From a virus: a stretch of DNA of 37,660 bases. Within the stretch, counting starts at the first letter, position 1; each line of letters starts with the position of its first letter. Positions 25,807 through 37,660 of this stretch are shown in pieces. The translations under genes were made by a program, and so were the position numbers. The notes beneath the pieces are model-generated. The model made no database searches. It was not told where the DNA came from and saw nothing but the letters and a program-made list of their open reading frames with translations. The stretch spans positions 1 to 37,660 of IMG/VR virus record IMGVR_UViG_3300046506_000122; one strand, given 5' to 3'.

Positions 25807-26445
25807 TCATATTAAGAACGTCGAACCCTTTCTAGCGCCGCCCGTCTCCCCGACTTCTAACGGCGATTTCATCACGCGGATAACGTCCGAAACCGGCTTG
25901 AGCGCTTCCCGGTCCAGGTCGTCGCACGCTTCGAAACAATGACCGACAAACCCGGCCCAATCGCGGGTCCATTGATCGCTACGCAAGCGGACACCGTACA
26001 CGTCGTCGAGCCATTGGCGGAAATCCTCGGGCTTTAGCAACGGGTCGAGGTTCGCGCTTTGCCCGCCTTGATGCATACGCCGATAACGGTAGAGGACGCC
26101 CATAGCGACATAGCGGGCGCGCGTGGCCTTGTGCGCGGTCATGCGCCCCGACTTGTCATAAGCGCGGACGTATACCGCCGCCTCGGCCGTCTCGCGCTGG
26201 TCGTCATTGGCAAGCGGGTTATAGAGCCAATGCCCGAACGCGGCGACGTAACCCGGCAATGTACCGATTGCCTGCATGACTCGCCCGGCTATTGCTTGAT
26301 GGACCGCCCGAACCGTTCGCCCGTCGAACTCGGACAATTGGACCGCGCCGCCGAGTTTGGCGCGCTCAATGGCGAACGAGGCGGCCGAATCGCCGGGCGA
26401 GTAATAGCAGTCGTGCCACGCTAACCGCGCGCTATTGAGTTTCAT
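25807..26445 (-). CDS. possible Q-like antitermination protein
   Basis: 212 aa from ATG 26445 (GGAGG 8 nt upstream, overlapping the previous stop). Helical and basic. The segment RARYVAMGVLYRYRRMHQGG, followed by LKPEDFRQWLDDVYGVRLRSDQWTRDW, loosely recalls Q-type antiterminators of lambdoid phages. The near-terminal position of the early operon, beyond the replication and nin-like genes, is also where Q is found. Homology is too weak to be sure; it may be an unrelated conserved phage protein. Confidence 0.4.
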   Translation of the reverse strand: MKLNSARLAWHDCYYSPGDSAASFAIERAKLGGAVQLSEFDGRTVRAVHQAIAGRVMQAIGTLPGYVAAFGHWLYNPLANDDQRETAEAAVYVRAYDKSGRMTAHKATRARYVAMGVLYRYRRMHQGGQSANLDPLLKPEDFRQWLDDVYGVRLRSDQWTRDWAGFVGHCFEACDDLDREALKPVSDVIRVMKSPLEVGETGGARKGSTFLI

Positions 26446-26446
26446 C

Positions 26447-27190
26447 CTATGAACCTCCAGGCAATGAAAACGCGATTTCGATTTGCGCGTCTGGTTCCCA
26501 AAGTGGGGCGCTGTTGTGGCTTTCGATACGGGCGGCGATAACCTCGGCGCGTTGCCCGGCCGTTGGGGGGCAATACATGCCGAAGCGCGCAATGCTCCCG
26601 CTATTGACCGCCGCGTTCGTCGAGTCGGCACTTGCCAGGGGTAGGCGTGAAAATATTTTGGGGTCGAGCATTCGGAGGCCATGCAAGCGGCAACGCGGGC
26701 GACCGTGTTGGTCGCATATCGCCGCCATGACCTCGCCGGTCCGTTTCCACCATGCCGGGGTTCCCGGCGTTTTCCATTTGCCCGAACTTCCCAACGCGAC
26801 CGTTCGCCATTCCATTGACAACCGGGTCAGGCGTTCGAGCGATTCGTGATAATGCCAAACCGGCACGCCGGGCAAGTGCCGAGGCCAGTCCTCGACGTAA
26901 CGATCATTCGCGGCCTCGTCGCCGTCGATTACGTCGGGAATCAGCGCCCAATCTAACCCCGGATGTCGCGCCCAATCGTCGACCCAGCGCGTGTACCCCT
27001 CGACGTCCAGTTGCCCGCCTTGCCGCCATACGGTGAACGCGCCGTTATCGAACACGAACGATTGGCACACCTCGGCGACACCCGGCAACTCGATAGGACT
27101 CGGAAACGGGATCAACGCATGTCGACCGGCGAGAAACTTAAGCGCGTCGAGGCGCGTCCCCCCGGCCGGTGTCCCGTGGTAATGGATCAA
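26447..27190 (-). CDS. TGT/DpdA-like protein (predicted deazaguanine transglycosylase fold)
   Basis: 247 aa from TTG 27190, supported by AAGGGGGCGG upstream and overlap with the previous stop (TTGA). The order of motifs fits a tRNA-guanine transglycosylase-like TIM barrel: FDNGAF (47-52) in the place of the TGT DSGGF active-site loop, IPDVIDG (84-90), VPVWHYHES (109-117), ALGSSG (132-137) as the glycine-rich loop, LHGLRML (169-175) and SADST (187-191) in the place of the nucleophilic Asp. It lacks a zinc-binding C-terminal domain, as do phage DpdA proteins that put 7-deazaguanines into DNA. No queuosine-precursor genes are present, so the substrate would come from the host. The fold call is inferred from motifs. 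Confidence 0.55.
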   Translation of the reverse strand: MIHYHGTPAGGTRLDALKFLAGRHALIPFPSPIELPGVAEVCQSFVFDNGAFTVWRQGGQLDVEGYTRWVDDWARHPGLDWALIPDVIDGDEAANDRYVEDWPRHLPGVPVWHYHESLERLTRLSMEWRTVALGSSGKWKTPGTPAWWKRTGEVMAAICDQHGRPRCRLHGLRMLDPKIFSRLPLASADSTNAAVNSGSIARFGMYCPPTAGQRAEVIAARIESHNSAPLWEPDAQIEIAFSLPGGS

Positions 27191-27396
27191 TTGCCGCCCC
27201 CTTTTTGTTGGAACTCGCATAGGTGGCGTTCGCACGTTGCTTTTGCCGTGTCGAGGTCAGTCCCCGCGTAAATAATCGGCGTGGTTCGCGGCGCTCGTGC
27301 GATATGAACGGTGATGCGTTCGTTAACAAACGACGACGCAATGATATAGCCGTCGTTTGACTCGATACGATATAGCCCCTTTTTTTGCCAGTTCAT
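27187..27396 (-). CDS. small hypothetical protein
   Basis: 69 aa from ATG 27396, which overlaps the upstream stop (ATGA). Beta-rich N-terminal part (KKGLYRIESNDGYIIASSF, then RITVHIARAPRT) and a C-terminal helix with CERHLCEFQQ. No family recognised. It is part of the translationally coupled chain of the early operon. Confidence 0.65.
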   Translation of the reverse strand: MNWQKKGLYRIESNDGYIIASSFVNERITVHIARAPRTTPIIYAGTDLDTAKATCERHLCEFQQKGGGN

Positions 27397-27719
27397 GCCC
27401 ACACCTCGGGGCCGAACTTGATCCCGGCCGTTTTCAGTTGGTAGCGAATCCATTCGGGTTCAACCCCGCATATCTGCGCGTGCCAAATGTTGCCCATCAA
27501 ATATTCGGACGCTTTCCGTCGTGCCGCCTCGGCCTCGAATCCGCGCTGATTCGTTATGAGGTCGTTTAACGCACTCGCGAAAATCGCGAGCATCAACCGC
27601 GCCTCGGCGTTGTCGGGGAACTGACAACCGATCTTGCGCACCAGGGCGCGGACTAAATCAAAAGTCTCGCGAGGGGTCCGACGTTCGCCGTTGCCTGTAC
27701 GTCCTAGGGGTCTGCTCAT
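27393..27719 (-). CDS. hypothetical protein, nin-like region
   Basis: 108 aa. Helical; the C-terminal half (RRKASEYLMGNIWHAQICGVEPEW) resembles small phage proteins in which a Trp/Cys-rich helix precedes G-x-x-P-E-W. No function is established for that group. Start ATG overlaps the upstream stop (ATGA). Confidence 0.65.
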   Translation of the reverse strand: MSRPLGRTGNGERRTPRETFDLVRALVRKIGCQFPDNAEARLMLAIFASALNDLITNQRGFEAEAARRKASEYLMGNIWHAQICGVEPEWIRYQLKTAGIKFGPEVWA

Positions 27720-28018
27720 GTTGTTATTTTCCTTTCCTTTATGAGTTCAACCAGCGTCCGCAACACCCCCTCAAGGTGGGCGAGTGCGGCGGTTTCAGCG
27801 TCGACTATCCGGGTGCGACGGTCGATTTCATCGTGACAACTCGAACACGCCCACGCGCCTAACAGGTCGTTGGGTTTGATCCCCATTCCGCACGTTCCGG
27901 CCAGCCGGTAATGGGCTAACACCGTCGTCTCGGGATCAAAGTTGCAGATACCGGCTAGCCGGACTTGGCAGTCGCGACCGCGTGCCGTCTCGCGTAGTTT
28001 GCTCAAAGGTCGAACCAT
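27716..28018 (-). CDS. DUF1364 nuclease-domain protein
   Basis: 100 aa. RETARGRDCQVRLAGICNF, ETTVLAHYRLAGTCGMGIKP and GAWACSSCHDEIDRRTR (about 9-70) match DUF1364, a small HNH-like nuclease-domain family of the nin region in lambdoid phages. Metal ligands are probably Cys17, Cys25, Cys58/61 and His62. The family is thought to act in recombination or DNA processing. It overlaps the phosphatase gene. Confidence 0.8.
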   Translation of the reverse strand: MVRPLSKLRETARGRDCQVRLAGICNFDPETTVLAHYRLAGTCGMGIKPNDLLGAWACSSCHDEIDRRTRIVDAETAALAHLEGVLRTLVELIKERKITT

Positions 28019-28707
28019 TCGAGGTCATCGCGCATCGGCGGGATGGACTCCAGGGTCTTTAAGTCGAGCAGCGTAAAATAGCCGCCGTGTTGCGGGAGCC
28101 AACCCCCCGTGTCGATGTGATAGACGTTGCCGAGGCGGGTCGGCCGATTGAGTGCGTTATGTCCGACGACGACGGCGGTTATCCCTTTCACCCCGCGCTC
28201 GTCGCCCGTTTCAACCCGAAGCCGCGACCATAGGCAAGCATTGCGGACGCTTTTTGAATCAAGCGCGCCGAGCAGGTCGCGCCAGTTATCAACCGGACAA
28301 TTCGCGTGGACGATTCCGACCATCCCGCCCGGCGTTTCGACCTCGATAGCAATTGGCAATTCGCGGAACTGCGCGGCGAACTCGCGCTGTTCATCCCAGG
28401 CCAACCCGGCGAACCACGACCCGCCGTTGTAAACCCAATTTTCCGTGTCGCAAGTGTCGAACCGGCAAACGTAGTCGTCGTGGTTGCCGCGTACCGAATG
28501 GACCCACGGTTTGTTCAACCACTCCAAAGCGGCGCGGCATTCGGGGCCACGGTCGACCAGATCGCCGACCATAAACAGACGGTCCCGAGTCGGGTCGAAA
28601 TGAACCGCATCAAGCGCACGCTGTAGCAAAGTGAAATAGCCGTGAACATCGCCGACCGCGAAGTCACGCCCGTGGACGTTGCGCGCGAATCGTTTGATTA
28701 GGCTCAT
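28003..28707 (-). CDS. lambda-type serine/threonine protein phosphatase
   Basis: 234 aa from ATG 28707, overlapping the upstream stop (ATGA); the longer frame has no SD. Residues fall at lambda phosphatase positions: Asp20 and His22 in GDVHG, Asp49 in GDLVDRG, Asn75 and His76 in RGNHD, with further His134 (VHANCP) and His183 (VGHN). This is the calcineurin-like two-metal phosphoesterase encoded in the nin region of lambda (NinI). Its natural substrate in infection is unknown. Confidence 0.92.
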   Translation of the reverse strand: MSLIKRFARNVHGRDFAVGDVHGYFTLLQRALDAVHFDPTRDRLFMVGDLVDRGPECRAALEWLNKPWVHSVRGNHDDYVCRFDTCDTENWVYNGGSWFAGLAWDEQREFAAQFRELPIAIEVETPGGMVGIVHANCPVDNWRDLLGALDSKSVRNACLWSRLRVETGDERGVKGITAVVVGHNALNRPTRLGNVYHIDTGGWLPQHGGYFTLLDLKTLESIPPMRDDLEWFDL

Positions 28708-28931: not shown

Positions 28932-29185
28932 TGCCATAACTCCCGTTCGATCATCACCGCCCCGAGCATTCCGAGGGACACCCATTCGACGCGATAGCGA
29001 AAACGGTTCGCCGTTTCCTGTACGTCCAAATGGCAAAGGCATTCGTACCCCTCAAAACAGTGATCCATTTTCAGCGGGCCGATTAGGTGGTGAACGCCGC
29101 ACCCGAGCAACGTCGCGAGTTCGCCAGCGTTGCGGGCCATGTCGTCGGTTCCGTCCAGCTTTTTGACTTGCACCCATTCACACAT
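28928..29185 (-). CDS. hypothetical protein
   Basis: 85 aa from ATG 29185 (TGATG overlap with the upstream gene). CEWVQVKKLDGTDDMARNAGELATLLGCGV, then MDHCFEGYECLCHLD. It has five cysteines, which may bind metal. No known family. Confidence 0.6.
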   Translation of the reverse strand: MCEWVQVKKLDGTDDMARNAGELATLLGCGVHHLIGPLKMDHCFEGYECLCHLDVQETANRFRYRVEWVSLGMLGAVMIERELWQ

Positions 29186-29685
29186 CAGGCGGTTTCCTTG
29201 AAAGCGTCGATTTCGGCCATTTCGGTTAACCGTTCCGGGGTCAGGTTCGGCCAGTCGTGCGCAATGACATACCCACAAACGCCGGTCCAAAACGCCTTAA
29301 ATTCGTCCTCGCCCATCGAGCTATAGGAAAGGCTTTGCGGTTTCGTGCTAATCAAAACGCCGACCCCCGGAATGTCGGTTCGGGTGCGGTCGCAACAAAC
29401 GCCGGACTCGAATTGCAGTTCCTTGATTACCGCGTGGGATAACTTGCCGGTGAATCGGTCGAGTTGTTGGGCGAGGATTTTCCCCAGGCCATGCACAAGA
29501 CGATTGAACCGGGGGTTGCGTGGTCTGGTCAGGTACGCAAACACCCGCGTATTCAGACGGAACCCACGCTCGCGCAACATCGACCGATCGGCCTCACTCG
29601 CCGCGACGAAAGCCGCCGTCGGTTTGCCGGTGGCCGGGTCCGTCAGGACGCGCAAAATCAACTCAATCGGGAGCGGCTTAGTCAT
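29185..29685 (-). CDS. DUF1367-like phage protein
   Basis: 166 aa from ATG 29685, inside the end of the P-like gene. FRLNTRVFAYLTRPRNPRFNRLVHGLG and the later KPQSLSYSSMGEDEFKAFWTGVCGY are like DUF1367 proteins, which sit next to replication genes in lambdoid phages; the function is unknown. The match is partial, so moderate confidence only. Confidence 0.55.
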   Translation of the reverse strand: MTKPLPIELILRVLTDPATGKPTAAFVAASEADRSMLRERGFRLNTRVFAYLTRPRNPRFNRLVHGLGKILAQQLDRFTGKLSHAVIKELQFESGVCCDRTRTDIPGVGVLISTKPQSLSYSSMGEDEFKAFWTGVCGYVIAHDWPNLTPERLTEMAEIDAFKETA

Positions 29686-30349
29686 CGGTTGGTTTCTCCT
29701 TATTACGCCCGCGCAACTTATCCAGGGCGGCGCGACCGACCTCGGGCGTGCGACGACCCTCGACCGTTTCCGGTAGGCCAATCAAGATTGGGCGCAATGG
29801 CTGGCCGTTCACGACCATTCGGCAAACGATCTTGTACGCGCGGTTAAACAGTTCGCGGGACGTCTTGAGCGGCAAGGTCGACAGGTTGTAAAGCCCGACC
29901 TCGCGCGCGGCGTGCGACACGGCCTCATGCGACCAGGGGCCACGGTCGCCGCTCGGGTAGGCGCGTCGGGTTGCCTCGGCGTAGGCGTCATCCTCCGAAG
30001 GCAGCCCGAGCAGTTCCGGGGTCGGGTGACACATCGCGATAAAGCGACCCACGGACGGGACGAAATCCGAAGGCAGTCGACGACAGGCCGCGACCCCGAA
30101 CCGGATTTGTTCGATTTGAGTTATCCCCTCGGCGACAAACCCCTTGACCATCGACCGCTTGTAATCCTGTAGCGAGGCGTCATCCGGCCACGCTTGCCGC
30201 CATGCCGGGAAAATTGCTTTCAGTTCACGAACGAGCAGGTTGACCACGCGCCCGGCCGCGTCGTCGACGTTGGGTTGTTCCTCGTCGCCGCCTTGCATTT
30301 GCGTGCCACGGGCGACGATTCGATTTACCAGGCTCTTAACGTGATCCAT
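29678..30349 (-). CDS. lambda P-like helicase loader
   Basis: 223 aa from ATG 30349 (TGATG overlap with the replication gene). NLLVRELKAIFPAWRQAWPD (about 37-56), YKRSMVKGFVAEGITQIEQIRFGVAACR and DFVPSVGRFIAMCHPTPEL (about 95-113) are the hallmarks of the lambda P family, which brings host DnaB helicase to the phage origin. The C-terminus is basic. Pairing with the preceding O-like gene supports theta replication. Confidence 0.87.
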   Translation of the reverse strand: MDHVKSLVNRIVARGTQMQGGDEEQPNVDDAAGRVVNLLVRELKAIFPAWRQAWPDDASLQDYKRSMVKGFVAEGITQIEQIRFGVAACRRLPSDFVPSVGRFIAMCHPTPELLGLPSEDDAYAEATRRAYPSGDRGPWSHEAVSHAAREVGLYNLSTLPLKTSRELFNRAYKIVCRMVVNGQPLRPILIGLPETVEGRRTPEVGRAALDKLRGRNKEKPTDD

Positions 30350-31182
30350 CACAAGCCCCCTAGGTTTTGGGTCCATGTCAGGTCATCAAAATCCGGCCCG
30401 GCTTTGGCGAGTGGAACAACCCGGCGACCGGCGTAGGTCTGCGCGTTCAACATCCAGTTGCGCCACGTCGCCAGCCAGTCGGCGCGGACTTCACCCTTCG
30501 AACGGAAATGGTTCAAAAACTTTTCGGTTTCCAGGCTGATCGACGTAGCGGGCGCGCGTTCGTTTGCCCATACGATCATGTCGGCAGTTATCGGGAACAA
30601 CTCGGGGACCGCTGTTTTGCGTTTGGTTTTCGGGGCTTTCGGTTCGGTCGGTTCCGTGGCTTTAGGCTGTTGTTTCTTTTCTCTTCTCTTCTCTTCTCTA
30701 TCGTCACCCGTTACGTCACCCGTAACGCCCGGTGACGCGTCACCGTTTAACTTAAGTTTTTCCCTGTAGCGCGCTTGCCGTAGCGCACCCGTCGACCGCC
30801 CGCCATGCTTAGCCGGGGCGTTGTATTCCGTGAAGTTGGGCAAGGTGACGGTATTGTTTTGCGGGTCGTATATCGCCCACTCGACCGCCGCCATTGCCGC
30901 ACCAAAGCCGACGATTCCGGCCGCGTTGTCGAGCGTGTCGAGGGTCGACATATGCCACACGCCGTCCTCCGTGTGTTCGTTCGTTGCGCACCATACGCGT
31001 AACAGCGCCGCCAACGTGACGTCACGCGTAACGTCACGCGTGACCATTCCGTCGAGTGCGCCGTTATGGTTGGTCAATAGGCGACGGCCGATGTCGAGCG
31101 ACGACCCCAGGACGTCGGCCATTTTCCAAACCTTCGGATGGGTCGACAGTGACGCGCGGTATTTGATCCAGTCCCCGGCCAT
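30349..31182 (-). CDS. lambda O-like replication initiator
   Basis: 277 aa from ATG 31182 (TAATG overlap with the HTH gene). N-terminal winged-helix-like part (about 1-130, WIKYRASLSTHPKVWKMADVLG, LLRVWCATNEHTEDGVWHM), a charged linker (about 140-195) with DDREEKRREKKQQ, and a C-terminal domain (about 200-277, EKFLNHFRSKGEVRADWLATWRNWML) that may bind the P-like partner. The linker-coding DNA contains the iteron-like repeats, as in the lambda O gene, where the origin is internal. Confidence 0.8.
   Translation of the reverse strand: MAGDWIKYRASLSTHPKVWKMADVLGSSLDIGRRLLTNHNGALDGMVTRDVTRDVTLAALLRVWCATNEHTEDGVWHMSTLDTLDNAAGIVGFGAAMAAVEWAIYDPQNNTVTLPNFTEYNAPAKHGGRSTGALRQARYREKLKLNGDASPGVTGDVTGDDREEKRREKKQQPKATEPTEPKAPKTKRKTAVPELFPITADMIVWANERAPATSISLETEKFLNHFRSKGEVRADWLATWRNWMLNAQTYAGRRVVPLAKAGPDFDDLTWTQNLGGL
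30669..30699 (+). repeat. polypyrimidine tract beside the iterons
   Basis: A pyrimidine-rich strand containing tandem TCTTC/CTCTT units. On the coding strand it encodes the Lys/Arg/Glu linker. Its position 3 bp from iteron pair A suggests a duplex-unwinding or triplex-prone element, though codon bias of a charged linker could also explain it. Confidence 0.6.
30702..30744. other. candidate replication origin: iteron pair A and palindrome
   Basis: CGTCACCCGTTA (30702-30713) is directly followed by CGTCACCCGTAA (30714-30725), then the 14-bp perfect palindrome GGTGACGCGTCACC (30731-30744). On its left lies a pyrimidine-only strand tract of TTCTC-type repeats (about 30669-30699), which may unwind easily. 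The cluster is inside the O-like gene, as the lambda origin is. Confidence 0.6.
31020..31043. repeat. iteron pair B
   Basis: CGTCACGCGTAA (31020-31031) and CGTCACGCGTGA (31032-31043) are tandem 12-mers of the same consensus as pair A, CGTCAC-(C/G)-CGT-N-A, about 318 bp away in the same gene. They encode the repeated T-R-D-V of the protein. Another CGTGAC at 31015-31020 abuts them as an inverted half. Confidence 0.6.
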
Positions 31183-31445
31183 TACTCGGCCCGCCCGTCG
31201 TACCAATAGACGTCGACTTTGACCATTCGGCCATTGCGGTTCCGTACCGGGATACTGTCCGAGCGAATCGGCTCGCCACGGTTGCGCAGTTCGTGAACGC
31301 GGGCGGCGAGGCGGGTAAACCCCCAAAGCGTAAAGGCTTCCATTGTCGTAATGCGCCCGCCTGATTTCAGGTAGCGCAACACGACGGCCGCTTGAGACGT
31401 GGAGTTGTCAGAGTTCGGGTCGTTGTTCATACTGGCCTCGCTCAT
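31182..31445 (-). CDS. HTH domain protein (phage HTH_39-like)
   Basis: 87 aa from ATG 31445, with GGGGG 6 nt upstream; ATG 31430 (GAGG upstream) is an alternative start. AAVVLRYLKSGGRITTMEAFTLWGFTRLAARVHELRNRGEPI (about 20-61) is the small winged HTH common just before phage replication genes. It may regulate the early operon or assist replication. The leader hairpin at 31450-31486 could mask its SD. Confidence 0.75.
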   Translation of the reverse strand: MSEASMNNDPNSDNSTSQAAVVLRYLKSGGRITTMEAFTLWGFTRLAARVHELRNRGEPIRSDSIPVRNRNGRMVKVDVYWYDGRAE

Positions 31446-31850: not shown

Positions 31851-32579
31851 ATGAAAACGAACTTATCCCCGACATTGGCCGAGCGTCTGACAAGCGCGAT
31901 GAAAGCCCGCAAGCTAACCCAGGTCCAATTAGCCGCCCTGGTTTCTACCGTTTCCGGCTTTCCGATTTCCCAGGTCGCAATCCAGAAAATCACCTCGGGC
32001 AAAACTCAGCACTCCCGCCGAATCCCCGACATTGCTAGGGCTTTGGGCGTGTCGCCCGAATGGCTCGGTTATGGGGATTCGCCTTTCCCCGAAAGTGGGT
32101 CTACATTCACACCAGAACCTAACCATTCGTCGGACGTTCTCCAGAACACGGACCTCGACGAACTGAAAATAAAATGGGGGTCGGTGCCGGTGGTAGGGAA
32201 AGCAAAGCTAGGCGAGGACGGCTATTTCGACGAAGAAGGCTATCCGCCGGGGTTTGGCGATGGTTGCCTACGCATACAAAGCGACGACCCGGACGCCTAC
32301 GGTCTGCGCGTATACGGCGACTCAATGAGTCCACGCATCAAACACGGCGAGTTCGTGGTGATCGAACCGAATCAACCCCCGGTTCGTTATGAGGAGGTTT
32401 TAGTTAAGACCGTGGACGGTCGCAAAATGATTAAGGTGTTCGCGGGGTACGCCGAGGGCTATTACCGTTTCGACTCCGTGAACGAGGACCATAAGCCGAT
32501 TCACCTTGCCGCCGAGGATGTCGAGGCAATCCATTACGTCGCGGGCATTCTGAAAAAATCCCGCTACTTCGAGCAGTAG
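31851..32579 (+). CDS. cI: CI-type repressor (XRE HTH plus S24 peptidase-like domain)
   Basis: 242 aa. N-terminal HTH (about 8-70; QVQLAALVSTVSGFPISQVAIQKITSGKT, then IPDIARALGVSPEWL). C-terminal LexA/S24 fold with Ser158 in YGDSMSPRIKHGE and Lys195 in GRKMIKVF, spaced 37 residues as in LexA. The hinge (112-121, VPVVGKAKLG) lacks the classical Ala-Gly or Cys-Gly cleavage pair. Keeps the prophage silent; the catalytic dyad suggests RecA-linked induction, but cleavage at an atypical site or another antirepressor route is possible. Translation probably starts on a leaderless mRNA. Confidence 0.92.
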   Translation: MKTNLSPTLAERLTSAMKARKLTQVQLAALVSTVSGFPISQVAIQKITSGKTQHSRRIPDIARALGVSPEWLGYGDSPFPESGSTFTPEPNHSSDVLQNTDLDELKIKWGSVPVVGKAKLGEDGYFDEEGYPPGFGDGCLRIQSDDPDAYGLRVYGDSMSPRIKHGEFVVIEPNQPPVRYEEVLVKTVDGRKMIKVFAGYAEGYYRFDSVNEDHKPIHLAAEDVEAIHYVAGILKKSRYFEQ

Positions 32580-35147: not shown

Positions 35148-35168
35148 CGCGTTAACGGGGGTTTGGGG

Positions 35169-36281
35169 ATGGTGACGTTTGGGTCAGTGTGTAGCGGAAT
35201 CGAATCGGCGTCGGTGGCGTGGCTCCCGCTCGGCTTTCGGTCGACGTGGTTTGCCGAGGTCGACCCGTTCCCTTGCGCGGTCCTGGCGCACCATTACCCG
35301 GACACGCCAAACCTCGGGGATATGACAGGGGTTGCGGCGTTGGTGTTGTCCGGGGCGGTCGACGCGCCGGACGTTCTGATCGGGGGTACGCCGTGTCAAG
35401 CCTTTAGCGTGGCGGGAATGCGCGAGGGGTTGGCCGACGAGCGCGGCGGTTTGACGCTTAAGTTTGTCGAGGTGGCGAATGCAATTGACTATGTTCGAGG
35501 ACGGTCCGGCAAACCCGCCGCCGTCATCGTGTGGGAAAACGTCCCCGGCGTATTGCAAGACACGGCGAACGCTTTCGGATGTTATCTCGCCGCCCTGGTG
35601 GGCGAATCCGAAGCGCTCCAGCCGTCAGGGGGAAAATGGTCGGACGCTGGTTGTGTGTATGGACCCGCGCGAGCAGTTGCGTGGCGGGTGTTGGATTCCC
35701 AATATTTCGGTTTGGCCCAACGCCGCCGACGTGTGTTCGTTGTCGCAAGTGCTAGAAGTGGGTTTGATCCCGCGTCGATATTATTTGAGTCCGAAGGCGT
35801 GCGCCGGGATATTGCGCCGAGCCGAGGCACGGGGCCGGAACTTGCCCGAGGCGTTACATGCGGCGTTGATTTCCGCAACCACTCATTAACCGGCGACCTC
35901 GCCCATACATTGCAGGCGGGCAAGAAAGGACCGGCTCCCGGCAATATGCCGCACGTCTTAACGACGCCGGGGGTTATGTCCGTTCACGGCACACAAGACC
36001 CGGACTTGTTAGTCGATATGGTTCACCCACTCGGGCGAAACGCCGGGCAAGAAAACGCAATATTCGAAGGCGGGCAAGTGCGCCGACTAACACCGCTTGA
36101 GTATGAACGGTTACAAGGCTTTCCCGATTACTACACGCTGATAAGTTGGCGCGGCAAACCGGCAACCGACACGCCGCGTTATTCCGCCATCGGTAACAGC
36201 AAACCGATTCCGGTAGTGCGTTGGATTGGCCGACGACTATTCGAGGCATTGAGCATTGACGAGGTGACTTATGGAAGCTGA
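35169..36281 (+). CDS. C5-cytosine DNA methyltransferase
   Basis: 370 aa from ATG 35169, with a TTG alternative two codons upstream. Motif order of 5-methylcytosine methylases: FGSVCSGIESAS (4-15, SAM binding), GGTPCQAFS (72-80, catalytic Cys76), ENVPGV (123-128), QRRRRVF (184-190), the variable target-recognition region (about 200-300), RLTPLEYERLQGFP near 315 and AIGNSKPIP near 345. No cognate restriction enzyme is seen nearby, so it is a solitary methylase that may protect the phage genome. Target sequence cannot be read from the protein. Confidence 0.93.
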   Translation: MVTFGSVCSGIESASVAWLPLGFRSTWFAEVDPFPCAVLAHHYPDTPNLGDMTGVAALVLSGAVDAPDVLIGGTPCQAFSVAGMREGLADERGGLTLKFVEVANAIDYVRGRSGKPAAVIVWENVPGVLQDTANAFGCYLAALVGESEALQPSGGKWSDAGCVYGPARAVAWRVLDSQYFGLAQRRRRVFVVASARSGFDPASILFESEGVRRDIAPSRGTGPELARGVTCGVDFRNHSLTGDLAHTLQAGKKGPAPGNMPHVLTTPGVMSVHGTQDPDLLVDMVHPLGRNAGQENAIFEGGQVRRLTPLEYERLQGFPDYYTLISWRGKPATDTPRYSAIGNSKPIPVVRWIGRRLFEALSIDEVTYGS

Positions 36282-36516
36282 AATTTTACACGTCCCCGAG
36301 ATTGCAAAACTAATGGGTCGTACAGAATCGGCCATCCGTAGCGCGGTGCAACATCGCGCCGATTGGTTGCCGCCGTTCTATAAGCAAGGCACGCGGATAT
36401 GCTGGCGCGTTGAAACAGTGCGCAAGTTCCTAAAGGATTTCGAACAGGGGGAATATAAAGAAGTGAAAGCCGGGCGGCCCCGTAAAGAGCCGCCGCGTGT
36501 GTTGGCACTAGGGTAA
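36271..36516 (+). CDS. putative excisionase (HTH_17/MerR-like)
   Basis: 81 aa; start lies within the end of the methyltransferase gene. EILHVPEIAKLMGRTESAIRSAVQHR (about 4-29), PPFYKQGTRICWRVETVRKFLKDF is a small winged-helix domain of the kind in excisionases and AlpA-like proteins. It is convergent with int, with a 9-bp overlap of their 3' ends. Opposite transcription of xis and int allows excision only when the rightward operon is active (inferred). Confidence 0.72.
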   Translation: MEAEILHVPEIAKLMGRTESAIRSAVQHRADWLPPFYKQGTRICWRVETVRKFLKDFEQGEYKEVKAGRPRKEPPRVLALG

Positions 36517-37479
36517 TTTGTCGGCCAGTCTCTCGGGGCTTAAGTGCGTGTAGCGCTTAAGCATCGACAGCGTTTTGTGTCCGGTAATGGCGGCGACTTC
36601 CATTAGGTCTAGGTTCAACTCGAACAGACGGCTAGTCGCCTCGTGTCTCAAGTCGTGAAAGTGAAGGTCGACAACCTCGGCCGCTTGTACCGCACGAACG
36701 AAATAATTACTAACCGATTGCGGCGAAATGCTAAAGACTCGCCCGTCCGAATTTTCCGGCAAAGCCTTTATGAGTTCGAGCGCTTTAGTCGAAAGCGGCA
36801 CCCGGCGACGGTCGCCGTTTTTCGTGTCCTCTAGATAAGCCACTCGCCCGCGAATCTGTTCCCGCCGCAACAGTACCAACTCACTCCGACGCATTGCCGT
36901 ATCGGCCGCGAGTTCGATTATCACGGGTAACTCGGGGTTAATCACTCGCGCCGCTTCACAAACCTTTTTGAGTTCGGCAGTAGTCGGGCGGCGGTCGCGT
37001 TCCTTGCTTCCCTTGGGGAGTCGTATTTGTTTGCAAGGATTGGTCAGTCCTTCCATATGCCACTCTTTAGCGGCGACCGAATAGAGGTGACTCAGGATTG
37101 CAATTTCCAGGCGCACAGTATTAGTCGCGACGTTTTGCTTTAGGCGCTCGTCTCGAAAGGTGGCGAGGTCGGACGGGGTAATGGCGCTTAGATACTTTTC
37201 GGCGAGCGGATGTTTTAGCCAACGCTTAATCCGAACGGCTTCCTGTTTTGATCCCTTCTTGCCGTCACTGATTTTCAAATACTTGTCGAGTGCCGCCGCT
37301 AGTGTGGTCTGGTCGGCTTTGCTTTTGTCGACGTATTTCGAGCGAGCCATGTCCCCCTCTATACCCGACGCCCATTTCACCGCCTCGCCTTTCGTGTCGA
37401 AAGTGGCGGTCATGGTTGGGTATCCCTTGCGCCTGATTTGCGCTTGCCAGGACGAACCGCGTTTGTTGTAGGTAGCCAT
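36508..37479 (-). CDS. int: tyrosine-family integrase
   Basis: 323 aa from ATG 37479 (GGGGATAACGAA upstream); the longer frame lacks an SD. N-terminal arm-binding domain (about 1-50), SAM-like core-binding domain (about 58-145) and catalytic domain (about 160-323) with the full set: Arg197 (TAMRRSE), Lys220 (DTKNG), His275 and Arg278 (HDLRHE), His301 (GHKT) and the nucleophile Tyr310 (KRYTHL). It catalyses integration at the tRNA-Ser(CGA) gene. The promoter region overlaps arm-type sites at 37523-37554, so the integrase may control its own expression. Confidence 0.95.
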   Translation of the reverse strand: MATYNKRGSSWQAQIRRKGYPTMTATFDTKGEAVKWASGIEGDMARSKYVDKSKADQTTLAAALDKYLKISDGKKGSKQEAVRIKRWLKHPLAEKYLSAITPSDLATFRDERLKQNVATNTVRLEIAILSHLYSVAAKEWHMEGLTNPCKQIRLPKGSKERDRRPTTAELKKVCEAARVINPELPVIIELAADTAMRRSELVLLRREQIRGRVAYLEDTKNGDRRRVPLSTKALELIKALPENSDGRVFSISPQSVSNYFVRAVQAAEVVDLHFHDLRHEATSRLFELNLDLMEVAAITGHKTLSMLKRYTHLSPERLADKLP

Positions 37480-37533
37480 TTCGTTATCCCCGTCGGTGGT
37501 TGGAAACCCAAGGATAGCCGAGTGGTGCAATGG

Positions 37534-37660
37534 CGTTGCACCAAATTTGCACCAAATGAAAAAGGGGCTAGCGCCTGCTAAGCGCTAACCCCTTGATTTT
37601 GGCGGAGAGATAGGGATTTGAACCCTAGGAAATGTTGCCACTTCAACGGATTTCGAATCC
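37534..37660. repeat. 127-bp terminal direct repeat, right copy
   Basis: This is the exact copy of bases 1-127. Reading on from 37660 into base 128 gives a continuous attP with arm sites on both sides of the core. That supports a circular or circularly permuted genome rather than a linear genome with true terminal repeats. Confidence 0.95.

Follow-up and report, generated by a model that had tools for sequence, protein, structure and literature searches.

What does a short protein with the motifs of a guanine transglycosylase do in a temperate phage, and from where would it draw its unusual base? We addressed this question in the viral record IMGVR_UViG_3300046506_000122, whose entire 37,660 nt constitute the stretch analyzed here (the window). 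A preliminary description had placed a DpdA-like protein, related to the tRNA-guanine transglycosylases (TGTs), at positions 26447–27190. Both the open reading frame (ORF) and its five motifs (FDNGAF, IPDVIDG, ALGSSG, LHGLRML, and SADST, in that order) were found as described, and the protein matches the PHROGs family phrog_887 with an E value of 4.7e-64. The ORF runs from a TTG start at 27190 to a stop at 26447. Its frame stays open as far back as a GTG at 27235, and there is a 4-nt overlap between the TTG start and the upstream stop. A start codon occupies the same position in 127 of 128 relatives (116 ATG, 8 GTG, and 3 TTG). Nucleotide differences from the closest relative, locus L001, number 40, 16, and 120 at codon positions 1, 2, and 3, and 194 of 232 residues are kept, indicating purifying selection. 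The ORF is a genuine gene and not a chance reading frame.

The ends of the window are identical over 127 bp (1–127 and 37534–37660), and the record is therefore complete and circular, with a length of about 37.5 kb. It carries integrase, CI-like repressor, O/P replication, head, tail, and lysis genes. The features on which the argument draws are as follows.

57 to 127, no strand: tRNA 3′-end-like stretch, a probable attP, inside the 127-bp end repeat and beside the integrase
25807 to 26444, minus strand: phrog_3373 protein of 212 residues, directly downstream of dpdA
26447 to 27190, minus strand: dpdA-like gene for a short (247-residue) guanine transglycosylase of the TGT superfamily, phrog_887, assigned by profile, tree, and fold
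27187 to 27453, minus strand: 88-residue ORF immediately before dpdA, with a 4-nt overlap between the two; a homologue occurs in the closest relative (L001) only
27393 to 27719, minus strand: 108-residue ORF of the dpdA operon
27716 to 28018, minus strand: YbcO-type HNH nuclease (PF07102, phrog_131)
28003 to 28704, minus strand: NinI-like serine/threonine phosphatase; the ORF is open to 28902, and the ATG at 28704 is the presumed start
29185 to 29781, minus strand: ORF for a NinB-like recombination mediator (phrog_319)
29678 to 30376, minus strand: lambda P-like helicase loader
30349 to 31326, minus strand: O-like replication initiation protein (phrog_2509)
31851 to 32579, plus strand: CI-like repressor (phrog_4)
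35163 to 36281, plus strand: C5-cytosine DNA methylase (PF00145, E = 1.2e-33), with a likely ATG start at 35169
36508 to 37530, minus strand: tyrosine integrase (phrog_1)

The dpdA gene occupies a lambda-like delayed-early stretch, in which the order is O-like, P-like, NinB, NinI-like phosphatase, YbcO nuclease, two small ORFs, dpdA, and phrog_3373. The phrog_3373 gene sits where lambda-like genomes often have the late antiterminator, a role suggested by this position. We also sought a conserved partner directly upstream of dpdA. In 67 relatives (L002, L012, L014, and 64 others), a conserved protein of 81–90 residues without a Pfam match overlaps the dpdA start; it has no homology to the product of the 88-residue ORF in the window. 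The putative attP stretch at 57–127 matches three Pseudomonas genomes at 82–90% and gave no match in the Cupriavidus and Caballeronia genomes searched; these sequence comparisons suggest a Pseudomonas-like host for the phage.

Comparisons at the sequence level place the protein among the DpdAs. The phrog_887 model recovers the DpdA proteins of phages 9g (2.5e-100), CAjan (2.3e-98), 7-11 (1.1e-75), and Dp-1 (2.9e-66), and it found no match in the record of nt-1, the source of DpdA2; an nt-1 protein shows a weak fold match to the window protein (E = 3.4e-3). DpdA1 proteins are distinguished by a conserved histidine (position 196) that is absent in DpdA2, and two histidines of the window protein, H112 and H169, are invariant candidates for that position. 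Searches with phmmer returned 7-11 (8.5e-30), CAjan (5.3e-10), and 9g (2.7e-8), and blastp aligned the protein with MED16 DpdA at 37% identity across 198 residues (E = 1.4e-42). The profile–profile comparison that the preliminary description had proposed as a check gave E = 2e-15 against the long DpdA group of 9g, CAjan, BcepGomr, and Dp-1; against host tRNA-TGTs it produced no alignment, using a TGT profile that is shallow (Neff 1.5). Sequence searches of Pfam, NCBIfam, and the PDB returned no relative of the protein. In a maximum-likelihood tree of 24 sequences, the short DpdAs, including the window protein, MED16, and 7-11, form a clade with 100/100 support that comprises 20 of the 24 sequences, and the long DpdAs of 9g, CAjan, BcepGomr, and Dp-1 fall outside it. 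The phages of clade-mates MED16 and 7-11 have been measured to contain dADG, the hydration product of inserted 7-cyano-7-deazaguanine (preQ0), in their DNA (PMC8306585, PMC6884629).

We built an AlphaFold2 model of the window protein from a 55-sequence alignment (mean pLDDT 86.9, pTM 0.84). Foldseek against the PDB ranked tryptophan-synthase (TrpA-type) barrels first, at low TM-scores, with no TGT among the best 50 matches. In a second look with VIA-align, which re-compared the candidates from Foldseek, TGT-superfamily entries fill all of the best 50 rows. These include archaeosine TGT 1j2b (Z 14.8, rmsd 4.5, 225 residues), Cap10 9ntn (Z 14.8, rmsd 3.9, 228 residues), Zymomonas TGT (Z about 14), and the DNA preQ0 insertase DpdA 7ui4 (Z 13.8, rmsd 4.4, 214 residues). 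Because the Z values are nearly tied, the fold supports membership in the TGT superfamily, and the DpdA placement rests on sequence and tree. The confident model predicts a TGT-type TIM barrel, in agreement with the fold first proposed for this protein from its motifs. Among 129 sequences, D47, D85, H112, G133, H169, D188, and S189 (model numbering) are invariant, and D47 and D188 align with residues of 9g and CAjan. In the model, D47, D85, and D188 lie at barrel strand ends in the same order as Asp102, Asp156, and Asp280 of TGT, suggesting that they are the equivalent catalytic aspartates; the mapping to TGT numbering, including that of D85, was made by strand order.

Does such a barrel act on RNA? 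A transglycosylase that alters guanines in host or phage tRNA and thereby tunes translation would have the same TGT fold, tRNA-TGTs make up many of the top structural matches, and several phage records annotate relatives as "queuine tRNA-ribosyltransferase". Against this, the protein does not match the PF01702 (tRNA-guanine transglycosylase) profile, and the zinc motif CxCxxC is found in 0 of 129 sequences, as expected from the original observation that the zinc domain of tRNA-TGTs is missing. The sequence moreover groups with DNA-acting DpdAs, and phages of relatives have dADG in DNA (PMC8306585). We consider action on tRNA unlikely.

Published measurements show what DpdA proteins of related phages do. 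Deletion of dpdA in CAjan, in which about 30% of guanines are modified, causes loss of dPreQ0 from the DNA (PMC6884629). Two DpdA-only phages without their own preQ0 genes have low measured densities, with 50 dADG per 10^6 nt in 7-11 (PMC6884629) and 354 dADG per 10^6 nt in MED16 (PMC8306585). No dADG was present in Mycobacterium phage Orion, whose DpdA is a singleton and whose host lacks preQ0 (PMC6884629). DpdA-only phages, temperate ones included, are already known; they were the largest group (76 phages) in the 2019 survey, which left their role open (PMC6884629).

The published densities require care. Full methylation of the 244 GATC sites that we counted in MED16 (L192, MK095605) would yield 5292 m6dA per 10^6 nt. 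The published value, 633 m6dA per 10^6 nt, is roughly one eighth of this, for DNA that was reported to be fully MboI-resistant (PMC8306585). This mismatch indicates that published absolute densities may be too low and cannot be used as site counts. We had considered that the MED16 dADG count might reflect a fixed set of rare sites, an idea dropped on account of this difference between predicted and measured m6dA. MED16 DNA is still cut by EcoRV, EcoRI, HaeIII, and other enzymes at sites with GA or GGC (PMC8306585). Strong protection should therefore not be taken for granted, and restriction evasion by the short subfamily is at most presumptive.

We next asked how the base would be supplied. 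A search of the whole record for QueC, QueD (PTPS), and the YhhQ/VUT preQ0 transporter found none, and no FolE, QueE, or QueF gene was present among the main ORFs scanned against PHROGs, in line with the earlier statement that the phage has no precursor synthesis genes. For comparison, we assembled 131 non-identical loci from viral and bacterial contigs. They were collected by similarity, with the best 80 per scan retained, so that fractions of the 131 are not population frequencies. On the Hymenobacter plasmids NZ_CP040937 and NZ_CP053909, a relative with about 50% identity extends the range of the gene beyond Proteobacteria and their phages. A relative in the 1.7-kb "Staphylococcus phage" record OR850331.1, with a score equal to those of Salmonella phage copies, is probably mislabelled or contaminated.

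Among the matches listed, a VUT/YhhQ-family gene abuts dpdA (within 12 nt) in 15 of the 131 relatives (L004, L005, L006, L009, L010, L156, L159, L165–L170, L173, and L175). The two genes share a strand in every case, and the transporter gene precedes dpdA in some relatives and follows it in others. The transporter gene of L003 matches PF02592 with E = 1.6e-9; this profile also matches genes near dpdA in Pam5 and RHph_X2_30 and, more weakly, in PS25B.1. The transporter–dpdA associations are spread over at least three tree branches. Queries with FolE, QueD, and QueC gave 0 matches at the loci of the 131 relatives listed. Transport of preQ0 in E. coli requires YhhQ (PMC5372724). Hutinet et al. 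(2019) had seen YhhQ in a subset of phages but no correlation with any phage group (PMC6884629), and the adjacency described here, which is testable, is the most useful addition to that survey. On the bacterial side, QueC and TGT are present in all 11 genomes with a related prophage, so preQ0 is available in those hosts, and its supply in the host of the window phage is presumed. The evidence ties the short DpdA subfamily to salvaged preQ0. The dependence on host precursor first proposed for this phage is supported by the absence of QueC, QueD, and a transporter, by QueC and TGT in the hosts of related prophages, and by the transporter adjacency in relatives.

Overall, we favor the interpretation that the window protein is a DpdA-type DNA guanine transglycosylase that uses host preQ0, with a probability of roughly 0.8. 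The DpdA identity given at the outset was upheld by family profile, tree, fold, and gene neighborhood; each of these tests could have failed, and together they support both the identity and the reliance on host precursor. In the proposed mechanism, the queuosine pathway of the host would make preQ0, and in the delayed-early period of infection the window DpdA would insert this base into DNA in exchange for guanine. Following the two-aspartate mechanism of TGT, one Asp would attack C1′ and hold the nucleoside covalently, with the other Asp serving as acid/base. The DNA would likely be left with preQ0 or dADG at low density, and the benefit may be the masking of sites from restriction or other nucleases. 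We infer DNA as the substrate in this phage, along with the final base, the timing, and the benefit.

A different purpose for the same chemistry would be to counter bacterial Dpd restriction islands: the mark would let phage DNA pass as self in hosts whose restriction targets DNA without deazaguanine. Two of the 11 genomes with a related prophage, those of Pseudomonas duriflava and P. argentinensis, do have DpdA, DpdB, and DpdC beside a QueC match (L204:8257-13391 and L205:5820-11046), in the order DpdC, DpdB, DpdA, second DpdB, QueC, such that a DpdB-family gene flanks DpdA on each side. However, most hosts of the short DpdA have no such island. In the genus of G001, a set of 399 genomes contains 17 with the phage-type gene, 4 with bacterial DpdA, and 0 with both, and this lack of overlap leaves a general counter-Dpd role unsupported and, in our estimate, quite improbable. 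Least credible is a Cap10-like protein of type IV CBASS that would conjugate or handle 7-deazaguanine on protein in prophage defence or counter-defence: protein deazaguanylation has been described (PMC11996544) and 9ntn ties for the top structural match, but the top matches lie within about 1 Z of each other and do not single out Cap10, of the Cap9 (QueC-like) and CD-NTase genes that would accompany it the record holds no QueC/Cap9 partner, PADLOC gave 0 matches for the window gene and three neighbors, and relatives sit in phages with dADG in DNA.

Returning to the DNA-modifying DpdA with host-derived preQ0, we considered whether it operates alongside a second modification. The C5-cytosine methylase reported in the preliminary description is indeed present, about 8 kb from dpdA and on the opposite strand. 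C5 methylase matches occur in the flanks of 42 of the 131 relatives listed, within 1.5 kb in 23 and directly adjacent in 13. This co-location is an association only, as the counts stand without a background rate. The proximity in relatives (23/131 within 1.5 kb) makes two layers of DNA modification plausible in the window phage. More tentatively, and with considerable doubt on our part, the short DpdAs of temperate phages could be a distinct salvage-fed type that marks few DNA sites, providing a sparse identity or regulatory mark instead of masking the genome, sometimes with its own preQ0 importer in the operon and often near a cytosine methylase. The temperate laboratory phages BTP1, SfI, and HK106 carry the gene, and the purpose of sparse deazaguanine is approachable there.

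Among known systems, MED16 DpdA (MK095605 gp38) offers a close parallel, as it is likewise a short singleton of the same clade in a phage without preQ0 genes. Both phages encode a DNA methylase, of the Dam-type adenine class in MED16 and the C5-cytosine class in the window phage; the MED16 paper names no integrase, whereas the window phage has a tyrosine integrase. The 7-11 DpdA (gp32), from a Salmonella phage with dADG in its DNA (PMC6884629), belongs to the same clade and is 34% identical to the window protein, but 7-11 is an 89.9-kb phiEco32-like phage and not a lambda-like temperate one. The CAjan and 9g DpdAs share the PHROG, the ordered motifs, and the invariant residues; unlike the 247-residue window protein, they are about 300 residues long, with a longer C-terminal part, and are encoded with preQ0/G+ synthesis genes.

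The DpdA of Dpd islands (PDB 7ui4), named a DNA preQ0 insertase, has a fold in common with the window protein, but it is about 430 residues long, is encoded beside DpdB and DpdC, and has 14% identity to the window protein in the structural alignment. The temperate phages BTP1, SPN3UB, SfI, HK106, SEN1, and Epa33 carry singleton family members at about 36–74% identity, located as in the window phage in early or delayed-early regions, although the neighbors differ. In Epa33, a C5 methylase directly adjoins the TGT-like gene, whereas the methylase of the window phage lies far away.
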